A DNA stretch of 64,000 nucleotides from Kribbibacterium absianum (GTDB lineage Bacteria > Actinomycetota > Coriobacteriia > Coriobacteriales > Atopobiaceae), in assembly GCF_030067705.1 (NCBI RefSeq), contig NZ_JASJEX010000004.1, positions 62,001-126,000 on the forward strand, given 5' to 3'. The position numbers and the translations under genes are program-made. Every line of letters begins with the position of its first letter. The first letter of the stretch is position 1. The notes beneath the pieces are model-generated. The model saw only the letters and a program-made list of their open reading frames with translations, had not been told where the DNA came from and did not search any database. Positions 2,492-35,185 of the stretch are shown piece after piece.

Positions 2492-3640
2492 CTACGCCGT
2501 CGTGCCAAGCGCGGCCATAAGGGCGGCGGGATCGGCCGCCAGCAGAGCGTCGGCCGCAGCACCGGCCGCCTCGCAGTCCGCGTCGTGCAAAAGCCAGTAC
2601 GTCTGACCGTCCGGGCCCTCGCCCATGGGCTGCGCGCCCGGGACCTCGACGGAGGAGCGGAACACGTAGTCGCCGGCTAGGAGCGCGGGGTCCCACTGAA
2701 GCGTGGTCTCGGTGGCGTAGGCTGGGCGCTCGCCCCCTGCGCAGTCGAGAAGGTCCTGCACGATGGCGTTGCCGGTGGGCAGCGAGCCGGCCCCTTGGCC
2801 GTAGAACTTGAGCGTGCCCACGGTGTCGCCCACCAAGGTGGCGAGGTTGTAGTTCGCAGGGACGTTGGCCTCGACGGAGCCCACCGGCAGCAGCACCGGC
2901 TCGACGCAGGCCGCATACGCGCCGTCCCGCTGAATCGCCCGGGCCATGAGCCGCGGGGCGCGCCCCAACGAGCTTCGGAAGAACGCGATGTCCGCCGCCG
3001 TGAGGTTGCGGATGCCGTGCACCGGGATGTCGCGGCGGCACAGGCTGCCAAAGGCCACCGTGGCGCTGATCACGCACTTGTTCGCGGTGTCGATGCCGTC
3101 GATGTCGGCGGAGGGGTCGCGCTCGGCATAGCCGAGGGACTGCGCCTCCGCGAGCGCCGTGTCGAACTCCGTGCCGAGCGTCTCCATCGAGTGGATCAGA
3201 TAGTTGGAGGTGCCGTTGAGGATGCCGTAGACCTCGGAGAGCGCGTCGATGCGGCGCGCCTTCACAATGGAGGCGATCCAGGGCACGCCGCCGCCAGAGG
3301 TGGCCTCGATGAAGAGCCCCGCGCCGCTGGCCTCGGCGGCCGCGGCGAACTCGGGCAGGAACGCCGCCACCACGGCCTTGTTGGAGGTGACCACGGACTT
3401 CCCGGCGTTGAGGCACTGCAGAATGAAGGTGTGGGCCGGCTCCAGGCCGCCCATGGCCTCAACCACGGCCTCGACGGTGTCGTCGTTCACGATGTCGCCG
3501 ATGTCCGAGGTCTGGCGAGGGTCGTCAATCTCGCCCGGGAGGGTCAGGATGCGCACCAGCTCCAGCGAGGGGACCTTCTCGTCCACGATCTTGGCCACGC
3601 CGCCACCGACGACGCCGCAGCCGAGCAACGCGAACCTCAT
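2492..3640 (-). CDS. hom: Homoserine dehydrogenase with degenerate ACT domain
   Basis: This enzyme reduces aspartate semialdehyde to homoserine. The NAD(P)-binding motif GCGVVGGG is at residues 7-14. The catalytic core is intact, including GGGVPWIASI, ILNGTSNYLI and ADIDGIDTANK. The protein has 382 residues, against about 430 in Gram-positive relatives with a full ACT domain. The end keeps ACT-like edges (YVFRSSVEVPG and TYWLLHDADCEAA), but the middle of that domain is missing, so threonine feedback may be lost. The start at 3640 places the Rossmann motif at the N-terminus. It is the first gene of hom-lysC-asd and is divergent from thrC across 100 bases that must hold both promoters. Confidence 0.94.
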   Translation of the reverse strand: MRFALLGCGVVGGGVAKIVDEKVPSLELVRILTLPGEIDDPRQTSDIGDIVNDDTVEAVVEAMGGLEPAHTFILQCLNAGKSVVTSNKAVVAAFLPEFAAAAEASGAGLFIEATSGGGVPWIASIVKARRIDALSEVYGILNGTSNYLIHSMETLGTEFDTALAEAQSLGYAERDPSADIDGIDTANKCVISATVAFGSLCRRDIPVHGIRNLTAADIAFFRSSLGRAPRLMARAIQRDGAYAACVEPVLLPVGSVEANVPANYNLATLVGDTVGTLKFYGQGAGSLPTGNAIVQDLLDCAGGERPAYATETTLQWDPALLAGDYVFRSSVEVPGAQPMGEGPDGQTYWLLHDADCEAAGAAADALLAADPAALMAALGTTA

Positions 3641-26771: not shown

Positions 26772-26800
26772 AGTATGTGTCAGAACGCGCGTTCGTGCAA
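26772..26800 (-). promoter_or_regulatory. rmuC promoter with SOS (LexA) box
   Basis: On the minus strand TTGCAC and CATACT lie 17 bases apart. The spacer contains GAACGCGCGTTC at 26783-26794, a perfect match to the Gram-positive/actinobacterial SOS consensus GAAC-N4-GTTC. LexA bound here would cover the -35 to -10 interval. The start codon is about 35 bases downstream. Confidence 0.75.
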
Positions 26801-26814
26801 GCCGCCCCGGCCAG

Positions 26815-27978
26815 CTAGCGCTCCATGTGCTGGCGGTGAGCCTCCTCGGCGAAGGAGGGGTCGTCCGGGCTGATCAGCTCGTCGTGGCCCTCCGAGTCGT
26901 AGTGGTGCAACAGCACCGGCTGGAAGAGCCGGAGCTTCACGGCGAACAACGCCGAGAAGGCCATCAGGAACAGGAAGATCGCGATCCGAGGCCAGAGGCC
27001 CACCTGGGTCATCACGATGGCGCCCGCGCACAACAGGAACGTCCACAGGTAGATCAGGAGCACCGCCTGGCGCTGGTTGAACCCCTCTTGGATCAAACGG
27101 TGATGGATGTGCCCCTTGTCAGCCTGACCCACGGACACGTGGGCGCGGCGCCGACGCACGATGGCGGAGAACGTGTCCATGATGGGGACCCAGGCCAGCA
27201 CGAGCGGCAGGAGGATCATCGTGAGGCCGGCGACGCGCGTGACCGAGAGCAAGGAGATGCACCCGAGCGAGAACCCGAGCAAAAGCGACCCGGAATCGCC
27301 GAGGAAGATACCGGCGGGGTTGAAGTTGTACCTCAGGAATCCAAGCGTGGCGCCGCAGAGGACGATCGCCAGACCGGCGGCGTCGTACCGGCCGGCGTTG
27401 AACGCGAGCACGAAGAGCGTCAGCGACGAGATGCAGGACACGCCGGAAGCAAGGCCGTCCAGCCCGTCGATCAGGTTGATGATGTTGGCGAACGCGACGA
27501 GATAGACCACCGTGAGCACGTAGCCCATCCAGCCGAGGTTCACCTCGCCCGGGGCGAACGGGTTCACCACGTTGCCTATCACGAGGCCGCTCGCAGCGGC
27601 CACGACAGCGGCGGCCACCTGCAGGCAGAGCTTGGGAAGCGGTCGGAGCCCTCGCACGTCGTCCACCGCACCGGTCAAGAAGATGACCACAAGCGAGAGC
27701 CCGAGGACCGGGTAGTTCACGAGCTGGCGCCCCTCCGAAAAGAAGACCGACGACCACACCCCGGCCTTGGCGCCCCACGCCAGGAGCCCAAACGCGCAGG
27801 CCATGCCGAGGGCCACGGCGATGCCGCCCATGCGAGGGATCGGGACCCGGTTGACCCGGCGCTTGGCCGGGCGGTCCACGGCACCGAGCGCGATCGCAAT
27901 GCGGCGGGCCACAGGCGTGCACAGAAGCGTCACAAGGAACGCGGTCAGGAAGGCACAGGCGAACGCGAACCAGTCCAT
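26815..27978 (-). CDS. wecA: Undecaprenyl-phosphate GlcNAc-1-phosphate transferase (WecA/TagO family)
   Basis: This polytopic enzyme transfers a sugar-1-phosphate from a UDP-sugar to undecaprenyl phosphate, starting teichoic acid or other surface glycan synthesis. The 387-residue protein has about ten membrane segments. It carries family motifs: PRMGG, the aspartate pair TGAVDDVRGL, NIINLIDGLDGLASG, and KGHIHHRLIQEG with the conserved histidines. It is related to MraY, present elsewhere in this window, but the HIHH motif marks the WecA/TagO branch. The ATG at 27978 follows AGGAAAGG. It is apparently monocistronic. Confidence 0.92.
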   Translation of the reverse strand: MDWFAFACAFLTAFLVTLLCTPVARRIAIALGAVDRPAKRRVNRVPIPRMGGIAVALGMACAFGLLAWGAKAGVWSSVFFSEGRQLVNYPVLGLSLVVIFLTGAVDDVRGLRPLPKLCLQVAAAVVAAASGLVIGNVVNPFAPGEVNLGWMGYVLTVVYLVAFANIINLIDGLDGLASGVSCISSLTLFVLAFNAGRYDAAGLAIVLCGATLGFLRYNFNPAGIFLGDSGSLLLGFSLGCISLLSVTRVAGLTMILLPLVLAWVPIMDTFSAIVRRRRAHVSVGQADKGHIHHRLIQEGFNQRQAVLLIYLWTFLLCAGAIVMTQVGLWPRIAIFLFLMAFSALFAVKLRLFQPVLLHHYDSEGHDELISPDDPSFAEEAHRQHMER

Positions 27979-28105
27979 GCCCCCCCCTTTCCTCGTCCTG
28001 ACCGGCACAAACGCCGCCACCTGTCACCAGTGTGCCAGTCTACTGCATGGGTGCGCGCTCCTCCGCACACACCCCACAGGCACAGACCGTCCGCGGGGTC
28101 AAGGC

Positions 28106-30150: not shown

Positions 30151-30786
30151 ATGGACAGCTACCGCACCGTCGCCCGGGGCGCCCGCCCCACCTTCGAGCT
30201 GGTCGACCGCAAGAGCCGCTTCATCGCCCAACTGGCGCACGTCGCGACCGCGGCCGATGCGGACGCGTTCGTCGCCGAGGTGCGCGCCACCCATCACGAC
30301 GCGCGCCACAACGTGCCGGTGTGGATCCTGGCCGACGGCACCGAGCGCGCAAGCGACGACGGCGAGCCCCAGGGCACGGCCGGGCACCCCGTGCTCGACG
30401 TTCTGCGGGGCGCGGGGCTCATGGACGTGTGCTGTGTGGTGACCAGGTACTTCGGTGGCACGCTCCTCGGCCCCGGCGGCCTCGTCCGCGCTTACTCGGG
30501 GGCCGCGTCCGGAGCCATCGATGTCGCTGAGCAGACAGGCGGCGTCGTGGTGATGACCTTCGTCACCCCGTGCGCGGTGTCGGTGCCTTACGCCTGGTAC
30601 GACCGCGTCTCACGCCTCGCGGCGGACGCGGGCGGCAAGGTGCGCGACCAGCTCTTTCGAGAGGACGTGACGCTCACCGTGGACTTCAAGGCCGGTGACG
30701 AGCGCCCCTTCGTGGACGCGGTGCGTGAGCTGGCCTCGGGCGAGGACCTCGTGCGTGTCCGAGAGCCGCGGTTCGCGGAGTTCTGA
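30151..30786 (+). CDS. YigZ/IMPACT family protein
   Basis: This 211-residue protein has the conserved N-terminal UPF0029 domain: KSRFIAQLAHV, HHDARHNVPVW, SDDGEPQGTAGHPVLD and VTRYFGGTLLGPGGLVRAY. The smaller C-terminal part has the EF-G domain IV-like fold of YigZ proteins. The family is linked to translation control in eukaryotes (IMPACT) but is not assigned in bacteria. AGAAGGA precedes the ATG. It is divergent from rnpB and stands upstream of the SOS-regulated repair pair. Confidence 0.9.
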   Translation: MDSYRTVARGARPTFELVDRKSRFIAQLAHVATAADADAFVAEVRATHHDARHNVPVWILADGTERASDDGEPQGTAGHPVLDVLRGAGLMDVCCVVTRYFGGTLLGPGGLVRAYSGAASGAIDVAEQTGGVVVMTFVTPCAVSVPYAWYDRVSRLAADAGGKVRDQLFREDVTLTVDFKAGDERPFVDAVRELASGEDLVRVREPRFAEF

Positions 30787-30870
30787 GCCAGGGCACACGG
30801 TCGGCCATCGCTCACCAGAACGTTCGTGCTCGAACGTCCATTCTTTTTGTGCTAGGATGGAACACAATAG

Positions 30871-30882
30871 GAACGCAAGTTC
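30871..30882 (+). promoter_or_regulatory. SOS (LexA) box upstream of the radical-SAM repair gene
   Basis: GAACGCAAGTTC matches GAAC-N4-GTTC exactly and extends to a 14-base palindrome with the flanking G and C. It lies 12 bases after a TAGGAT -10-like element (30853-30858) and 21 bases before the start codon, covering the expected transcription start. Confidence 0.72.
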
Positions 30883-30903
30883 CGTCCAAGGGAGCACAGC
30901 CGT

Positions 30904-32283
30904 ATGGACACGCTGACCAAGCTCGGAATTCTCGCCGACGCGGCCAAGTACGACGCCGCCTGCACCTCGTCGGGCGTGGACCGCGCGCCCAAGAAGGGGG
31001 CCCTCGGCAACGCCAACTCCTGCGGCTGCTGCCACTCGTTCACGGCAGACGGCCGCTGCGTGACGCTGCTCAAAGTGCTCCTCTCCAACGCCTGCTCCTA
31101 CGACTGCGCCTATTGCGTCAACCGGCGCTCGAACCCGCGCCCCCGCGCCACGTTCGAGCCCCGCGAGCTCGCGAGCCTCACGATGGACTTCTACAAGCGC
31201 AACTACATCGAGGGGCTCTTCCTGAGCTCGGGGGTGCTCGGCGACCCGAACCGCACGGCGGAGCGCATGATCGAGTGCCTCCGCATCCTGCGCGAGGAGG
31301 AGCGGTTCAACGGCTACATCCACGCCAAGGCCATCCCGGGCGCAGACCCGGTGCTCCTCGACCGGCTCGGACGCTATGCGGACCGGCTCTCGGTGAACAT
31401 CGAGCTGCCGAGCCGCGCCTCGTTGGGCGCCCTCTGTCCCGACAAGGACGCGTCGTCGATCCTCCATCCCATGGCCCAGATTTCCCGAACCATCGAGGGC
31501 GAGCGCCTGCTCGGTGCCGGCGGCCGCGGCAACAAGGGCGCCGGCTCACGGTTCTCCACCGTGAAACCGGAGCTTCCCGAGGCGCCCGTCCGGCCGTTGC
31601 TGCCCATGAGCACGGGGGCGCAGACGGCGTCACCCAAGGCCGGTGCCCTCCAGCGCTTCTGTCCCGCCGGACAGTCCACCCAGCTCATCATCGGGGCGAG
31701 CCCCGAGAGCGACAACCAGATCCTCAAGCTCTCAAGCTCCCTGTACCAGAGGTTTGGGCTCAAGCGCGTGTTCTTCTCGGCCTATATGCCGGTGGTGGAC
31801 GACTCCCGGCTCCCCCATCCCGAGACGCCGGTGCCGCTGCGTCGGGAGCACCGCCTGTACCAGGCCGACTGGCTCATGCGTTTCTACGCGTTCACCGCAG
31901 ACGAGCTCGTCTCGCCAGAGGCGCCGTTCCTGGACCTCGACGTAGACCCCAAGCTGGCCTGGGCACTGACCCACATGGAGCGGTTCCCCGTGGAGGTCAA
32001 CACCGCGCCGCAGGCGGAGCTGCTCCGCGTCCCGGGCATCGGTGTCACGGGCGCGCGAAAGATCCTCCGCGCCCGTCGGGGGCACCGGCTCACGTTCGAC
32101 GACCTGGATCGGCTCAAGCTGACCATGAGGCGCGCACGGCACTTCGTCACCTGCAACGGCCAGCGCGACCCACGCAGCCCCGCGAACCCCGAGCTCATCC
32201 GAGAGCGGGTGATCGCCGATGCCTCCCAGTCCACGTACAACAAGACCCGTCGCGTTGCCGAGGGCCAGCTCTCCCTCTTTTGA
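30904..32283 (+). CDS. Radical SAM DNA modification/repair protein (TIGR03916-like)
   Basis: This 459-residue protein matches the radical SAM family found next to uracil-DNA-glycosylase-like proteins (COG4277 type). The iron-sulfur motif is CSYDCAYCVN (about residues 64-73), preceded by a CGCCHSF cluster. The C-terminus holds a helix-hairpin-helix DNA-binding motif (AELLRVPGIGVTGARKIL, about 376-393). The start ATG follows AAGGGAGC. An SOS box in the promoter supports a DNA-damage role. It overlaps the next gene if that gene starts at 32219. The reaction is not known. Confidence 0.9.
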   Translation: MDTLTKLGILADAAKYDAACTSSGVDRAPKKGALGNANSCGCCHSFTADGRCVTLLKVLLSNACSYDCAYCVNRRSNPRPRATFEPRELASLTMDFYKRNYIEGLFLSSGVLGDPNRTAERMIECLRILREEERFNGYIHAKAIPGADPVLLDRLGRYADRLSVNIELPSRASLGALCPDKDASSILHPMAQISRTIEGERLLGAGGRGNKGAGSRFSTVKPELPEAPVRPLLPMSTGAQTASPKAGALQRFCPAGQSTQLIIGASPESDNQILKLSSSLYQRFGLKRVFFSAYMPVVDDSRLPHPETPVPLRREHRLYQADWLMRFYAFTADELVSPEAPFLDLDVDPKLAWALTHMERFPVEVNTAPQAELLRVPGIGVTGARKILRARRGHRLTFDDLDRLKLTMRRARHFVTCNGQRDPRSPANPELIRERVIADASQSTYNKTRRVAEGQLSLF

Positions 32284-33331
32284 CCCCTCCAACCCGTTCC
32301 GCGACGCCAGCGAGGCGACCGTCGTGCTCTCTCGGGAGCTGGCGCGTTGCGCCGCGGAATCGACGGTCGCCTGCGTTGCCGTCGAGCCCACGGCGGAGGG
32401 GGTGCTCACGGCCGTGGGCGCCGCGTACCTGGCCCGCGTGCCAGCGGACGCGATGCGCTTGGTGCGCGCGGACGCCCTCCAACCGCGCTTGGACGAGCAC
32501 GTGGTCGCCGTCGAGACGGACACGGCGTTCGCGGTGCGCGTTCACCGAGGCCTCGAGCGCGCGCTTCGCCAGGGGTGTGACCGGGCGCTGTCGGAGAGCC
32601 GGTGCCCCTCCTGCCGCCGGAGGTGCACGCGCTTCTTCGCGTATCTGGCCGCGAGCGACGCGAAGGACGTGCCCGAGTGCGGCCATCGGTTCCTCCGGCG
32701 CGCCTTCGCGGAGCACCACGCGGTCTTCTGCCACAACAGCGACCCTGACGTCGGCCGAGCCGAGGAGCTTGCCACGGCCGTCTCGCAGGAATGCGAGCGG
32801 GCGCGCCAGTTCGTGCGGTTCTCCCACGCGGCGGACGGGTCGTTCGTCGCGGTCCACCGCCCCAACGCCGACGTGGTCCCCTTGGTGGCCGGCCATTTCA
32901 AGCGGCGCATGGGAACCGAGCGATTCGCGCTCGTCGACCCTCAGCACGGACGCGTGGCGCTCCATGCCGAGGGGCGCCTCACGCTGGTTCGCGTGCCCCA
33001 GAAGGACGCGGAGCGGCTGGCCGACTCCGTGACCCTTGCCGTCGACGAGCCCTATGTGAGGGCGCTGTGGAAGCGGTTCTACGATGCGCTCGAGCTGCCC
33101 GGGCGCCGGGCGGACCAGCGCGGGTACGACCTCCGGGGCTCCTTCATGCCGCAGCGGCTCTGGGCCGGCCTGCCGGAGTTGGACCCCCGCACGGACACCG
33201 CGTGGTCGTTCGTGCCCGCCGCCTATCGGGGCGCCCCTGACGGCCCGCTGCTCGACATGGAAAAAAGCACCGACTCCCGGGCGGGTTCCGGCACCTGCCC
33301 TGTCCTTCCGGCCAGCGGCTCACGTGGTTAG
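32219..33331 (+). CDS. DNA metabolism protein partner (TIGR03915-like, DUF4130)
   Basis: This is the usual companion of the radical SAM protein just upstream. The segment EGVLTAVGAAYLARV near the N-terminus and the DUF4130-type region LWKRFYDALELPGR, then FMPQRLWAGLPEL, are recognisable. A uracil-glycosylase domain fused to some relatives is absent. Length is 370 residues from the ATG at 32219, which overlaps the previous gene by 65 bases. A GTG at 32324 after GAGGCGACC is an alternative that would fit the family N-terminus better. The last 25 residues look unconserved. Confidence 0.8.
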   Translation: MPPSPRTTRPVALPRASSPSFDPSNPFRDASEATVVLSRELARCAAESTVACVAVEPTAEGVLTAVGAAYLARVPADAMRLVRADALQPRLDEHVVAVETDTAFAVRVHRGLERALRQGCDRALSESRCPSCRRRCTRFFAYLAASDAKDVPECGHRFLRRAFAEHHAVFCHNSDPDVGRAEELATAVSQECERARQFVRFSHAADGSFVAVHRPNADVVPLVAGHFKRRMGTERFALVDPQHGRVALHAEGRLTLVRVPQKDAERLADSVTLAVDEPYVRALWKRFYDALELPGRRADQRGYDLRGSFMPQRLWAGLPELDPRTDTAWSFVPAAYRGAPDGPLLDMEKSTDSRAGSGTCPVLPASGSRG

Positions 33332-33720: not shown

Positions 33721-33996
33721 TCACAGCTGGGTCCGTTGCTCGACGAACCAGCGAGGGTCCTCGTAGAACAACTGGGTCTGGCGATCGCCCACCTGAACGA
33801 CGAACCGGGTGCCGCCCGACCCGGATCCGGGAGCACGCCATGGCCGCGCGCTCGCCACCTTGTCCACGAGAAAGCGACGACCGTCCTCCCAGTCGACCCA
33901 CAGCGGGTGCACCCGCCCGTGAACGTCGGTGCGCTCCCCCACGCCGACGTAGCACCGGTCGCCGCCGGCCACCTGCCCTCGACGCACCAAGGCCAT
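33721..33996 (-). CDS. SOS-linked small protein, possibly DUF6504-like
   Basis: A 91-residue protein. The core has two beta-rich parts: VHPLWVDWEDGRRFLVDKV, then TRFVVQVGDRQTQLFYEDPRW, separated by a Gly/Ser linker. The pattern of a dressed-up Trp/Phe box and a final DPRWFVEQ recalls the DUF6504 proteins of actinobacterial mutagenesis operons, but similarity is weak and I only infer it. GAGGAGGG precedes the ATG. A perfect SOS box lies 21 bases upstream, so expression on DNA damage is likely. Confidence 0.7.
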   Translation of the reverse strand: MALVRRGQVAGGDRCYVGVGERTDVHGRVHPLWVDWEDGRRFLVDKVASARPWRAPGSGSGGTRFVVQVGDRQTQLFYEDPRWFVEQRTQL

Positions 33997-34016
33997 GGTG
34001 CCCTCCTCGCTGTTAA

Positions 34017-34028
34017 GAACGTGTGTTC
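34017..34028 (-). promoter_or_regulatory. SOS (LexA) box upstream of the 91-residue gene
   Basis: GAACGTGTGTTC, with arms extending to AAGAAC and GTTCTT (34015-34030), matches GAAC-N4-GTTC. On the minus strand it follows TAGTATAAG, a -10-like element, so it would cover the transcription start. Confidence 0.72.
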
Positions 34029-34207: not shown

Positions 34208-35185
34208 CTAGATCCTCCACTGGGACCGGTCGTTCGGGTCCAGCTGCTGCCCCACCACGAGGTTTTGGAAGCGGTCCTCGATGAACTGGTCGTTGAAGTG
34301 GTAGTCCACGTAGGCGTCGATCGGGTTCTGCGCCGGGATGCCGAGCGAGCGTTGCTCCAGACGGTAGAAGGAGTACGCCGTCATCAAGAGGTCCAGCGTC
34401 ATGAACGCGACGAGCACGCCCACCAGCACCGTCTGCATGCGGCTCGACGGCTCCCCGATGCGCCACACCAGCTCGGGCATGACGAGCTTGGAGTACACGA
34501 GGCCGATGACGCCCCAGAGGCACACCGTGGTCCACGACACCCATTGCGTGATGGCGTCCGGCAACCCGATGTACGTCCAGCTCTGCGCGTGCCAGAAGTA
34601 CTCCATCGCCATGCCGGTGGTCTGCTCGAGCGCGGCGCCGAGCCCCATGGAGACCGGGAGCACCTCGTACCATCGGCACGTGCGGAAGTTCCACAGCACG
34701 ATCGTGAACATCAGGGCGCCGAACCCGTACAACGGCGAGAACGGGCCCCACACCACGCCCACGCGGCTCTCGGTGCTCCCGAGGGACACCCACATCCAGA
34801 TCTCCTCCGCGACGAGGCCGATGACGCTGAACGCGATGAAGATGATGATGTAGTGGAAGATGCCGAGGCTCGCGGTCTGCAGGTACTCGTCGCGGGTCTT
34901 CATCTCCGCCTGAAAGATGCTGCGCCGCTGCTCCCGCGACAGGTGCGGGCGCCGTTTGACCTTGAGGCCCTCGTAGGCGTCGTCGGACACGCGCACGGCC
35001 GCCCCGAGCCGCTCGCGCTCGATGGCGCTGAGCGTGCTCTGGATGTCGTCACCGAACCGCTCGTCGCCCGCCAACGCCCGATAGCTGCGCCCGCGTGCGA
35101 TCCGGTAGCTCATCGAGCGCATGGCCCAGCCGGTGATGAGCACGAGGAAGACGGCGAGCTGAACGACGAGCAGCGTGTTGGCCAC
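34208..35185 (-). CDS. CmpB-type (ABC transporter permease-like) membrane protein
   Basis: This 325-residue membrane protein carries the PF06541-like core with FSVIGLVAEEIWMWV and VVWGPFSPLYGFGALMF. It has six or seven hydrophobic segments, starting with an N-terminal one (LLVVQLAVFLVLITGWAM). The family is annotated as ABC transporter permease, but no ATPase or binding protein is adjacent, so transport is unproven. The GTG start at 35185 follows GAAAGGCACC. Its last 66 bases are duplicated just downstream, a sign of local rearrangement. Confidence 0.8.
   Translation of the reverse strand: MANTLLVVQLAVFLVLITGWAMRSMSYRIARGRSYRALAGDERFGDDIQSTLSAIERERLGAAVRVSDDAYEGLKVKRRPHLSREQRRSIFQAEMKTRDEYLQTASLGIFHYIIIFIAFSVIGLVAEEIWMWVSLGSTESRVGVVWGPFSPLYGFGALMFTIVLWNFRTCRWYEVLPVSMGLGAALEQTTGMAMEYFWHAQSWTYIGLPDAITQWVSWTTVCLWGVIGLVYSKLVMPELVWRIGEPSSRMQTVLVGVLVAFMTLDLLMTAYSFYRLEQRSLGIPAQNPIDAYVDYHFNDQFIEDRFQNLVVGQQLDPNDRSQWRI

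Follow-up and report, generated by a model that had tools for sequence, protein, structure and literature searches.

A probable SOS-controlled DNA-repair gene pair of a radical SAM protein and a DUF4130 partner in Kribbibacterium absianum

The closest described relatives of the locus studied here are the radical SAM family TIGR03916 (rSAM_link_UDG) and the partner family TIGR03915 (SAM_7_link_chp/DUF4130) of NCBIfam. COG4277 is presumably the same radical SAM family as TIGR03916. We found no experimental work on any family member in the open-access literature. An operon of COG1573 and COG4277 genes is predicted to be under SOS control in Bacteroidetes, and the same control in Verrucomicrobia and Alphaproteobacteria is cited in that paper (PMC8565304).

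The gene pair described here comes from Kribbibacterium absianum, a gut-type actinobacterium of the family Atopobiaceae, and lies in a stretch of 64,000 nucleotides, referred to in its entirety as the window (Table 1). The first-pass annotation had read the pair as a radical SAM protein with a helix-hairpin-helix (HHH) and a DUF4130-type partner, and both assignments hold: ORF1 scores 583.8 bits against TIGR03916 (NCBIfam cut-off 343.5), ORF2 scores 136.7 bits against TIGR03915 (NCBIfam cut-off 112.25) and 104 against Pfam DUF4130 (cut-off 27), and the HHH is found. The genes overlap by 65 bases if ORF2 starts at 32219, which is uncertain; the family profile begins at residue 56. Because a terminator-like hairpin follows the upstream yigZ-type gene, the pair forms a separate transcription unit. 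The sequence GAACGTTC around 30818-30837 was considered as a further SOS box and rejected, as it is the terminator stem. The two families also travel together as claimed: of 217 testable loci, 199 have a DUF4130 gene downstream of the radical SAM gene and co-directional with it, and 18 loci with room for one have no DUF4130 nearby. Two distant relatives, L026 and L027 (contexts L043 and L044), have a perfect or near-perfect SOS box, no clamp motif and no DUF4130 within 5 kb downstream, and perhaps represent a separate sub-family.

Table 1. Features of the gene pair and its surroundings (positions in the window)
Feature	Position	Strand	Basis or remark
yigZ-type gene upstream of the pair	30151-30786		IMPACT/YigZ family match, below family cut-off
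Terminator-like hairpin of the yigZ-type gene, then T run	30820-30837	+	Sets the pair apart as a transcription unit
Distal LexA operator CGAACGTCCATTCT, degenerate in the window	30831-30844	+	Alignment with relatives
TAGGAT, possible -10 element lying between the operators	30853-30858	+	Alignment; relatives TATAGT, TACAGT
Proximal SOS (LexA) box GGAACGCAAGTTCC, core GAACGCAAGTTC at 30871-30882	30870-30883	+	Pattern, matrix, alignment with relatives
Radical SAM protein (ORF1), TIGR03916, 459 aa	30904-32283	+	Family profile; AlphaFold pLDDT 86
Codons of C20, C43-H44 and C52, candidate auxiliary Fe-S cluster ligands	30961-31059	+	Homolog conservation
Radical SAM motif C64-x3-C68-x2-C71 (CX3CX2C)	31093-31116	+	Invariant in 71 homologs
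HHH DNA-binding domain, residues 363-405	31990-32118	+	HHH_3; ComEA HHH
QLSLF, consensus beta sliding-clamp-binding motif, last five residues of ORF1	32266-32280	+	Sequence, homolog conservation
DUF4130 partner (ORF2), TIGR03915, 370 aa, start codon uncertain	32219-33331	+	Profiles; AlphaFold model
Four-cysteine insert C120/C129/C132/C136 in the DUF4130 protein	32576-32626	+	Alignment; part of family only
DUF4130 domain within ORF2	32681-33178	+	Profile match
Gene for a 91-aa protein	33721-33996	-	ORF; own SOS box AGAACACACGTTCT (read on its strand) at 34017-34028

Regulation of the pair was assessed with a matrix built from 50 lexA-promoter boxes of the window's family, which was applied to the 200 bp upstream of every radical SAM ortholog, with 555 windows taken at the same loci as controls. 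As a positive control, all lexA promoters in this family (30 of 30) carry a box of this type. The best score exceeded the 99th control percentile for 34 of 35 orthologs in the window's own family, 39 of 40 in the Eggerthellaceae-type family f2 and 22 of 22 in family f73, all three belonging to the Coriobacteriales; these counts are not independent events, because loci within one family are related. The background in f1, f2 and f73 was 0.012-0.020 boxes per 200 bp. With the same lexA-derived matrix, no ortholog of families f18 (n = 10) and f34 (n = 2) exceeded the 99th control percentile. The f18 branch (L002-L005, L007, L020-L024) has radical SAM orthologs without any Gram-positive SOS box. 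In a named genome set searched with the consensus pattern (background 0.0124 per 200 bp), a box precedes the gene in 37 of 56 mostly clostridial loci and in 17 of 24 Coriobacteriia loci.

For plasmid-borne orthologs, almost all of which come from other phyla, the LexA motif of the respective lineage was sought. The motif GAACN7GAAC lies at most 117 bp upstream of all alphaproteobacterial orthologs (n = 11; background 0.0065 per 200 bp), CTGTATA..ATACAG lies 27-29 bp upstream of all betaproteobacterial ones (n = 3), and a Lachnospira ortholog has two Gram-positive boxes. No LexA motif was found upstream of the Acinetobacter ortholog in this set; to our knowledge, Acinetobacter has no canonical LexA. 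Three LexA dialects converging on one gene are the strongest evidence for SOS control. The first-pass annotation had proposed a survey of promoters of homologous pairs and had taken the SOS box as regulatory support for a repair role; with boxes before most orthologs in three Coriobacteriales families and at most clostridial loci, and other dialects in Alpha- and Betaproteobacteria, the operators across lineages support this reading. A general lack of SOS boxes in relatives, which the annotation had named as refuting, was thus not observed, the f18 branch being an exception.

The model of the radical SAM protein has the usual radical SAM barrel, and its nearest folds among the matches listed are lipoyl synthase (Z 18.4 over 231 residues) and HydE (Z 17.1). 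The invariance of its three radical SAM cysteines shows that selection acts on catalysis. The HHH_3 profile matches ORF1 with 24.5 bits, below its cut-off of 27, and the family profile matches the ComEA HHH (E 3.8e-6). Additional residues close to the N-terminus are also highly conserved (C20 in 69, C43 and H44 each in 62, and C52 in 66 of 71 homologs), including in Proteobacteria, Bacteroidetes and Fusobacterium, and may hold a second Fe-S cluster.

UdgX is a uracil-DNA glycosylase that, besides removing uracil, crosslinks itself to the abasic site. The proteobacterial DUF4130 partner is fused to a TIGR03914/UdgX domain (Caballeronia, Azospirillum, Paracoccus). This fusion is present in nine annotated proteobacterial operons read whole, eight of which have a KRRIH/KRRLH-type loop, which we take to be the mark of a cross-linking UdgX, and it suggests uracil-derived or abasic damage as the target. 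C-terminal UDG fusions were not found in Coriobacteriales and Clostridia, where the DUF4130 tails are shorter than 90 residues. As the first-pass annotation had stated, ORF2 itself lacks a UDG-like domain (no match in NCBIfam, including TIGR03914/UdgX, or Pfam). A UDG fused to or adjacent to the pair in the window was likewise rejected after searches of NCBIfam and Pfam. Elsewhere, the K. absianum genome has two UDG-fold genes, both without an SOS box; one encodes a family-4-like UDG without the KRRIH/KRRLH loop. As the first-pass annotation suggested, the pair may function by itself or together with a glycosylase encoded at a distance.

The AlphaFold model of the DUF4130 protein (pLDDT 86) resembles DHH/DHHA1 proteins in all 50 matches listed, the best of which reaches Z 8.9 over 206 residues at 4.9 A. 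A Pfam scan of 78 members and a PDB profile search gave no sequence link to DHH proteins, nor did hhalign against 15 DHH-containing fragments, mostly RecJ (0.1%), and there is no DHH motif among the conserved DUF4130 residues. The likeness is thus a fold lead only, and DUF4130 is perhaps a non-catalytic RecJ/Cdc45-like DNA binder. Residues C120, C129 and C132 of the cysteine insert occur in 7 of 21 Atopobiaceae-side rows of the alignment and in no other row, and C136 in 14 of 21. A different cysteine-rich insert is present further along in Eggerthellaceae-type members; these inserts are possibly metal sites gained twice.

The conservation of C20, C43-H44 and C52 across phyla and the presence of lipoyl synthase among the nearest folds might also indicate that base modification or the placing of a protective mark, and not the repair of lesions, is the function of the pair, with the additional cluster supplying sulfur or an electron in a lipoyl synthase-like manner. 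Such a role would correspond to the words "DNA modification" in the family's name. We consider this unlikely, because both the UdgX fusion and the recurrence of SOS control among lineages suggest a link to damage, a constitutive modifier would need no LexA, and the likeness to lipoyl synthase lies within the common radical SAM barrel.

ORF1 ends in GQLSLF, a terminal and accessible position for a motif of the QL(S/D)LF type, which is the bacterial beta-clamp-binding consensus (PMC9690074). QLSLF is also the C-terminal clamp-binding motif of Bacillus subtilis PolC, as measured by fluorescence polarisation (PMC12309361). A motif in a single protein may arise by chance, and therefore only its conservation argues for a clamp motif: Q[LMIVF]x[LMI]F is found in the last 90 residues of 51 of 71 non-redundant homologs, 27 of them with the exact QLSLF, vs. 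0.6% in shuffled tails. Nearly all plasmid-borne orthologs (19 of 20) have this motif, or one very like it, at their C-terminus (QLSLF, QLALF, QLSLI, QLALL, QLEMF, QLKLF, QLILPF, QLSLGF), the exception being the Gemmatirosa ortholog, and only one of 78 DUF4130 proteins has a clamp motif anywhere. The tail is therefore predicted to tether the radical SAM enzyme to the replication clamp. The motif had not been remarked upon in the first-pass annotation, and no report linking clamp motifs or UdgX with radical SAM proteins was found in the open-access literature.

Clamp motif and SOS control are features common to Y-family and ImuB-type polymerases, and DUF4130 has been called a mutagenesis-related enzyme and placed near the genes of such polymerases (PMC3765255). 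Together with a small SOS-box gene 390 bp downstream of the pair, this could mean that the pair supports translesion mutagenesis at the clamp as a polymerase-switch or fork-remodelling factor, with radical chemistry being secondary; the invariance of the three radical SAM cysteines, which places catalysis under selection, and the lack of a polymerase gene in the window's operon make this improbable.

The small gene, which with its SOS box (33721-34028) had also gone unremarked, encodes a 91-aa protein with homologs in 71 of 120 genomes of the order, and 9 of 29 have a box within 250 bp. The protein has no Pfam or NCBIfam match, and its membership in a family of either database was accordingly rejected; visual comparison suggests a likeness to the solo ImuB-C domain described in PMC3765255. 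A second copy of this family in the K. absianum genome (L315, about 3201-3425, minus strand; 49% identity) is preceded by a pair of SOS-type boxes (3466 and 3500). In the window, the 91-aa gene adjoins a gene for a CmpB-like membrane protein (34208-35185, minus strand), and a similar-looking membrane protein gene (L038, 2875-4101) lies beside another copy.

The promoter region of the pair itself has a Gram-positive-type operator, GAACN4GTTC, in common with lexA, whose promoter in the K. absianum genome carries GGAACAATCGTTTG. Its core, GAACGCAAGTTC, ends at 30882, and 21 bases separate it from the ORF1 ATG at 30904. The window has three GAACN4GTTC sites vs. 0.70 expected, and no dinucleotide shuffle gave three; the third (GAACGCGCGTTC, 26783-26794) lies immediately beyond the 3' end of a minus-strand glycosyltransferase gene (26815-28020) and has no obvious target. 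The first-pass annotation called the proximal box perfect, which is true of its half-sites and not of its atypical GCAA centre, owing to which the matrix score of 6.9 bits exceeds the 95th control percentile (4.3) and remains below the 99th (9.1). Alignment with five relatives places two operators in register around a presumed -10, and the relatives' SOS box lies at an equal distance from the radical SAM start, so that its position is conserved. In the close relative L016, the distal operator is perfect (CGAACACCCGTTCC) and in register with CGAACGTCCATTCT of the window. TAGGAT is a possible -10 element by this alignment; a consensus promoter scan of the region found no promoter. The SOS box at 30871-30882 is thus real, and it is very unlikely that it is a chance match leaving the pair without SOS regulation in K. 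absianum, as its sub-threshold score might suggest, given that the position and two-operator layout are kept in relatives and that 34 of 35 orthologs in the family have a high-scoring box.

The families, their pairing, the SOS operators across lineages, the motif conservation and the UdgX fusion are established here, and the pair is probably a LexA-repressed DNA-repair module whose radical SAM enzyme is induced by SOS, tethered to the clamp and active on damage at forks. DNA damage would remove LexA from the two operators flanking the promoter, allowing joint production of the radical SAM protein and DUF4130. We infer the steps after expression, from clamp docking and radical chemistry on the lesion to the role of DUF4130; this also applies to DNA as the substrate, because proteins and small molecules are also possible substrates of radical SAM enzymes. 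The C-terminal QLSLF would dock on the beta sliding clamp and bring the radical SAM protein to forks or repair patches, where its HHH domain would hold the DNA backbone. The [4Fe-4S] cluster and SAM would then generate a 5'-deoxyadenosyl radical acting directly on the damaged nucleotide, with DUF4130 as a DNA-binding or lesion-presenting subunit. In Proteobacteria, the UdgX carried by DUF4130 would excise uracil and crosslink to the abasic site. Because of this fusion, the enzyme is likely to act on pyrimidine lesions (deaminated, oxidised or abasic) or on the adduct formed by UdgX. Counting against the repair reading are the f18 orthologs, none of which has a box although the radical SAM protein is present, the window's box, which is weaker than most, and the 18 unpaired loci. 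More tentatively, and as a possibility rather than an expectation, the enzyme may be loaded onto the clamp during the SOS response and use radical chemistry at the fork to repair or process either a lesion (abasic or derived from a pyrimidine) or a crosslink between UdgX and DNA. A second Fe-S cluster might take part in this, as might a DNA-binding partner of a degenerate RecJ/Cdc45-like kind. If true, a replisome-tethered radical SAM repair system would be spread over several phyla, linking radical SAM chemistry to the replisome and adding an SOS repair step in many anaerobes and some aerobes. The TIGR03916/TIGR03915 family is widespread. Taken together, the operators, clamp tail, C20/C43/C52 and UdgX fusion turn suspected repair into testable predictions.

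Compared with known systems, the DUF4130 model resembles the DHH/DHHA1 proteins RecJ, Cdc45 and NrnA in fold, with no sequence link and no conserved DHH motif. Another radical SAM enzyme with a connection to DNA repair, and in some species to SOS, is spore photoproduct lyase (SplB, COG1533), but it has a different partner, and the window's protein has a C-terminal HHH. ORF1 matched no NCBIfam model of spore photoproduct lyase up to E 1; the enzyme is not among the structure matches listed for the radical SAM model, which excludes nothing. The pair passes the curated cut-offs of TIGR03916 and TIGR03915 and shares their adjacent, co-directional gene order; it differs from this uncharacterised family in lacking a UDG-type (UdgX, TIGR03914) domain, which is fused to the proteobacterial partner and absent from the window's. 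The COG1573-COG4277 operon is likewise a two-gene operon under LexA, very probably with the same radical SAM family, but its LexA motifs are different and its partner is described via the UDG domain in the sections of PMC8565304 consulted. Because SOS regulation was reported there for Bacteroidetes, Verrucomicrobia and Alphaproteobacteria, our results are an extension and not a discovery in this respect. The same sections do not mention Gram-positive and betaproteobacterial members or the clamp motif, and it is the SOS survey of these two groups, together with the conserved clamp tag, that is new here.
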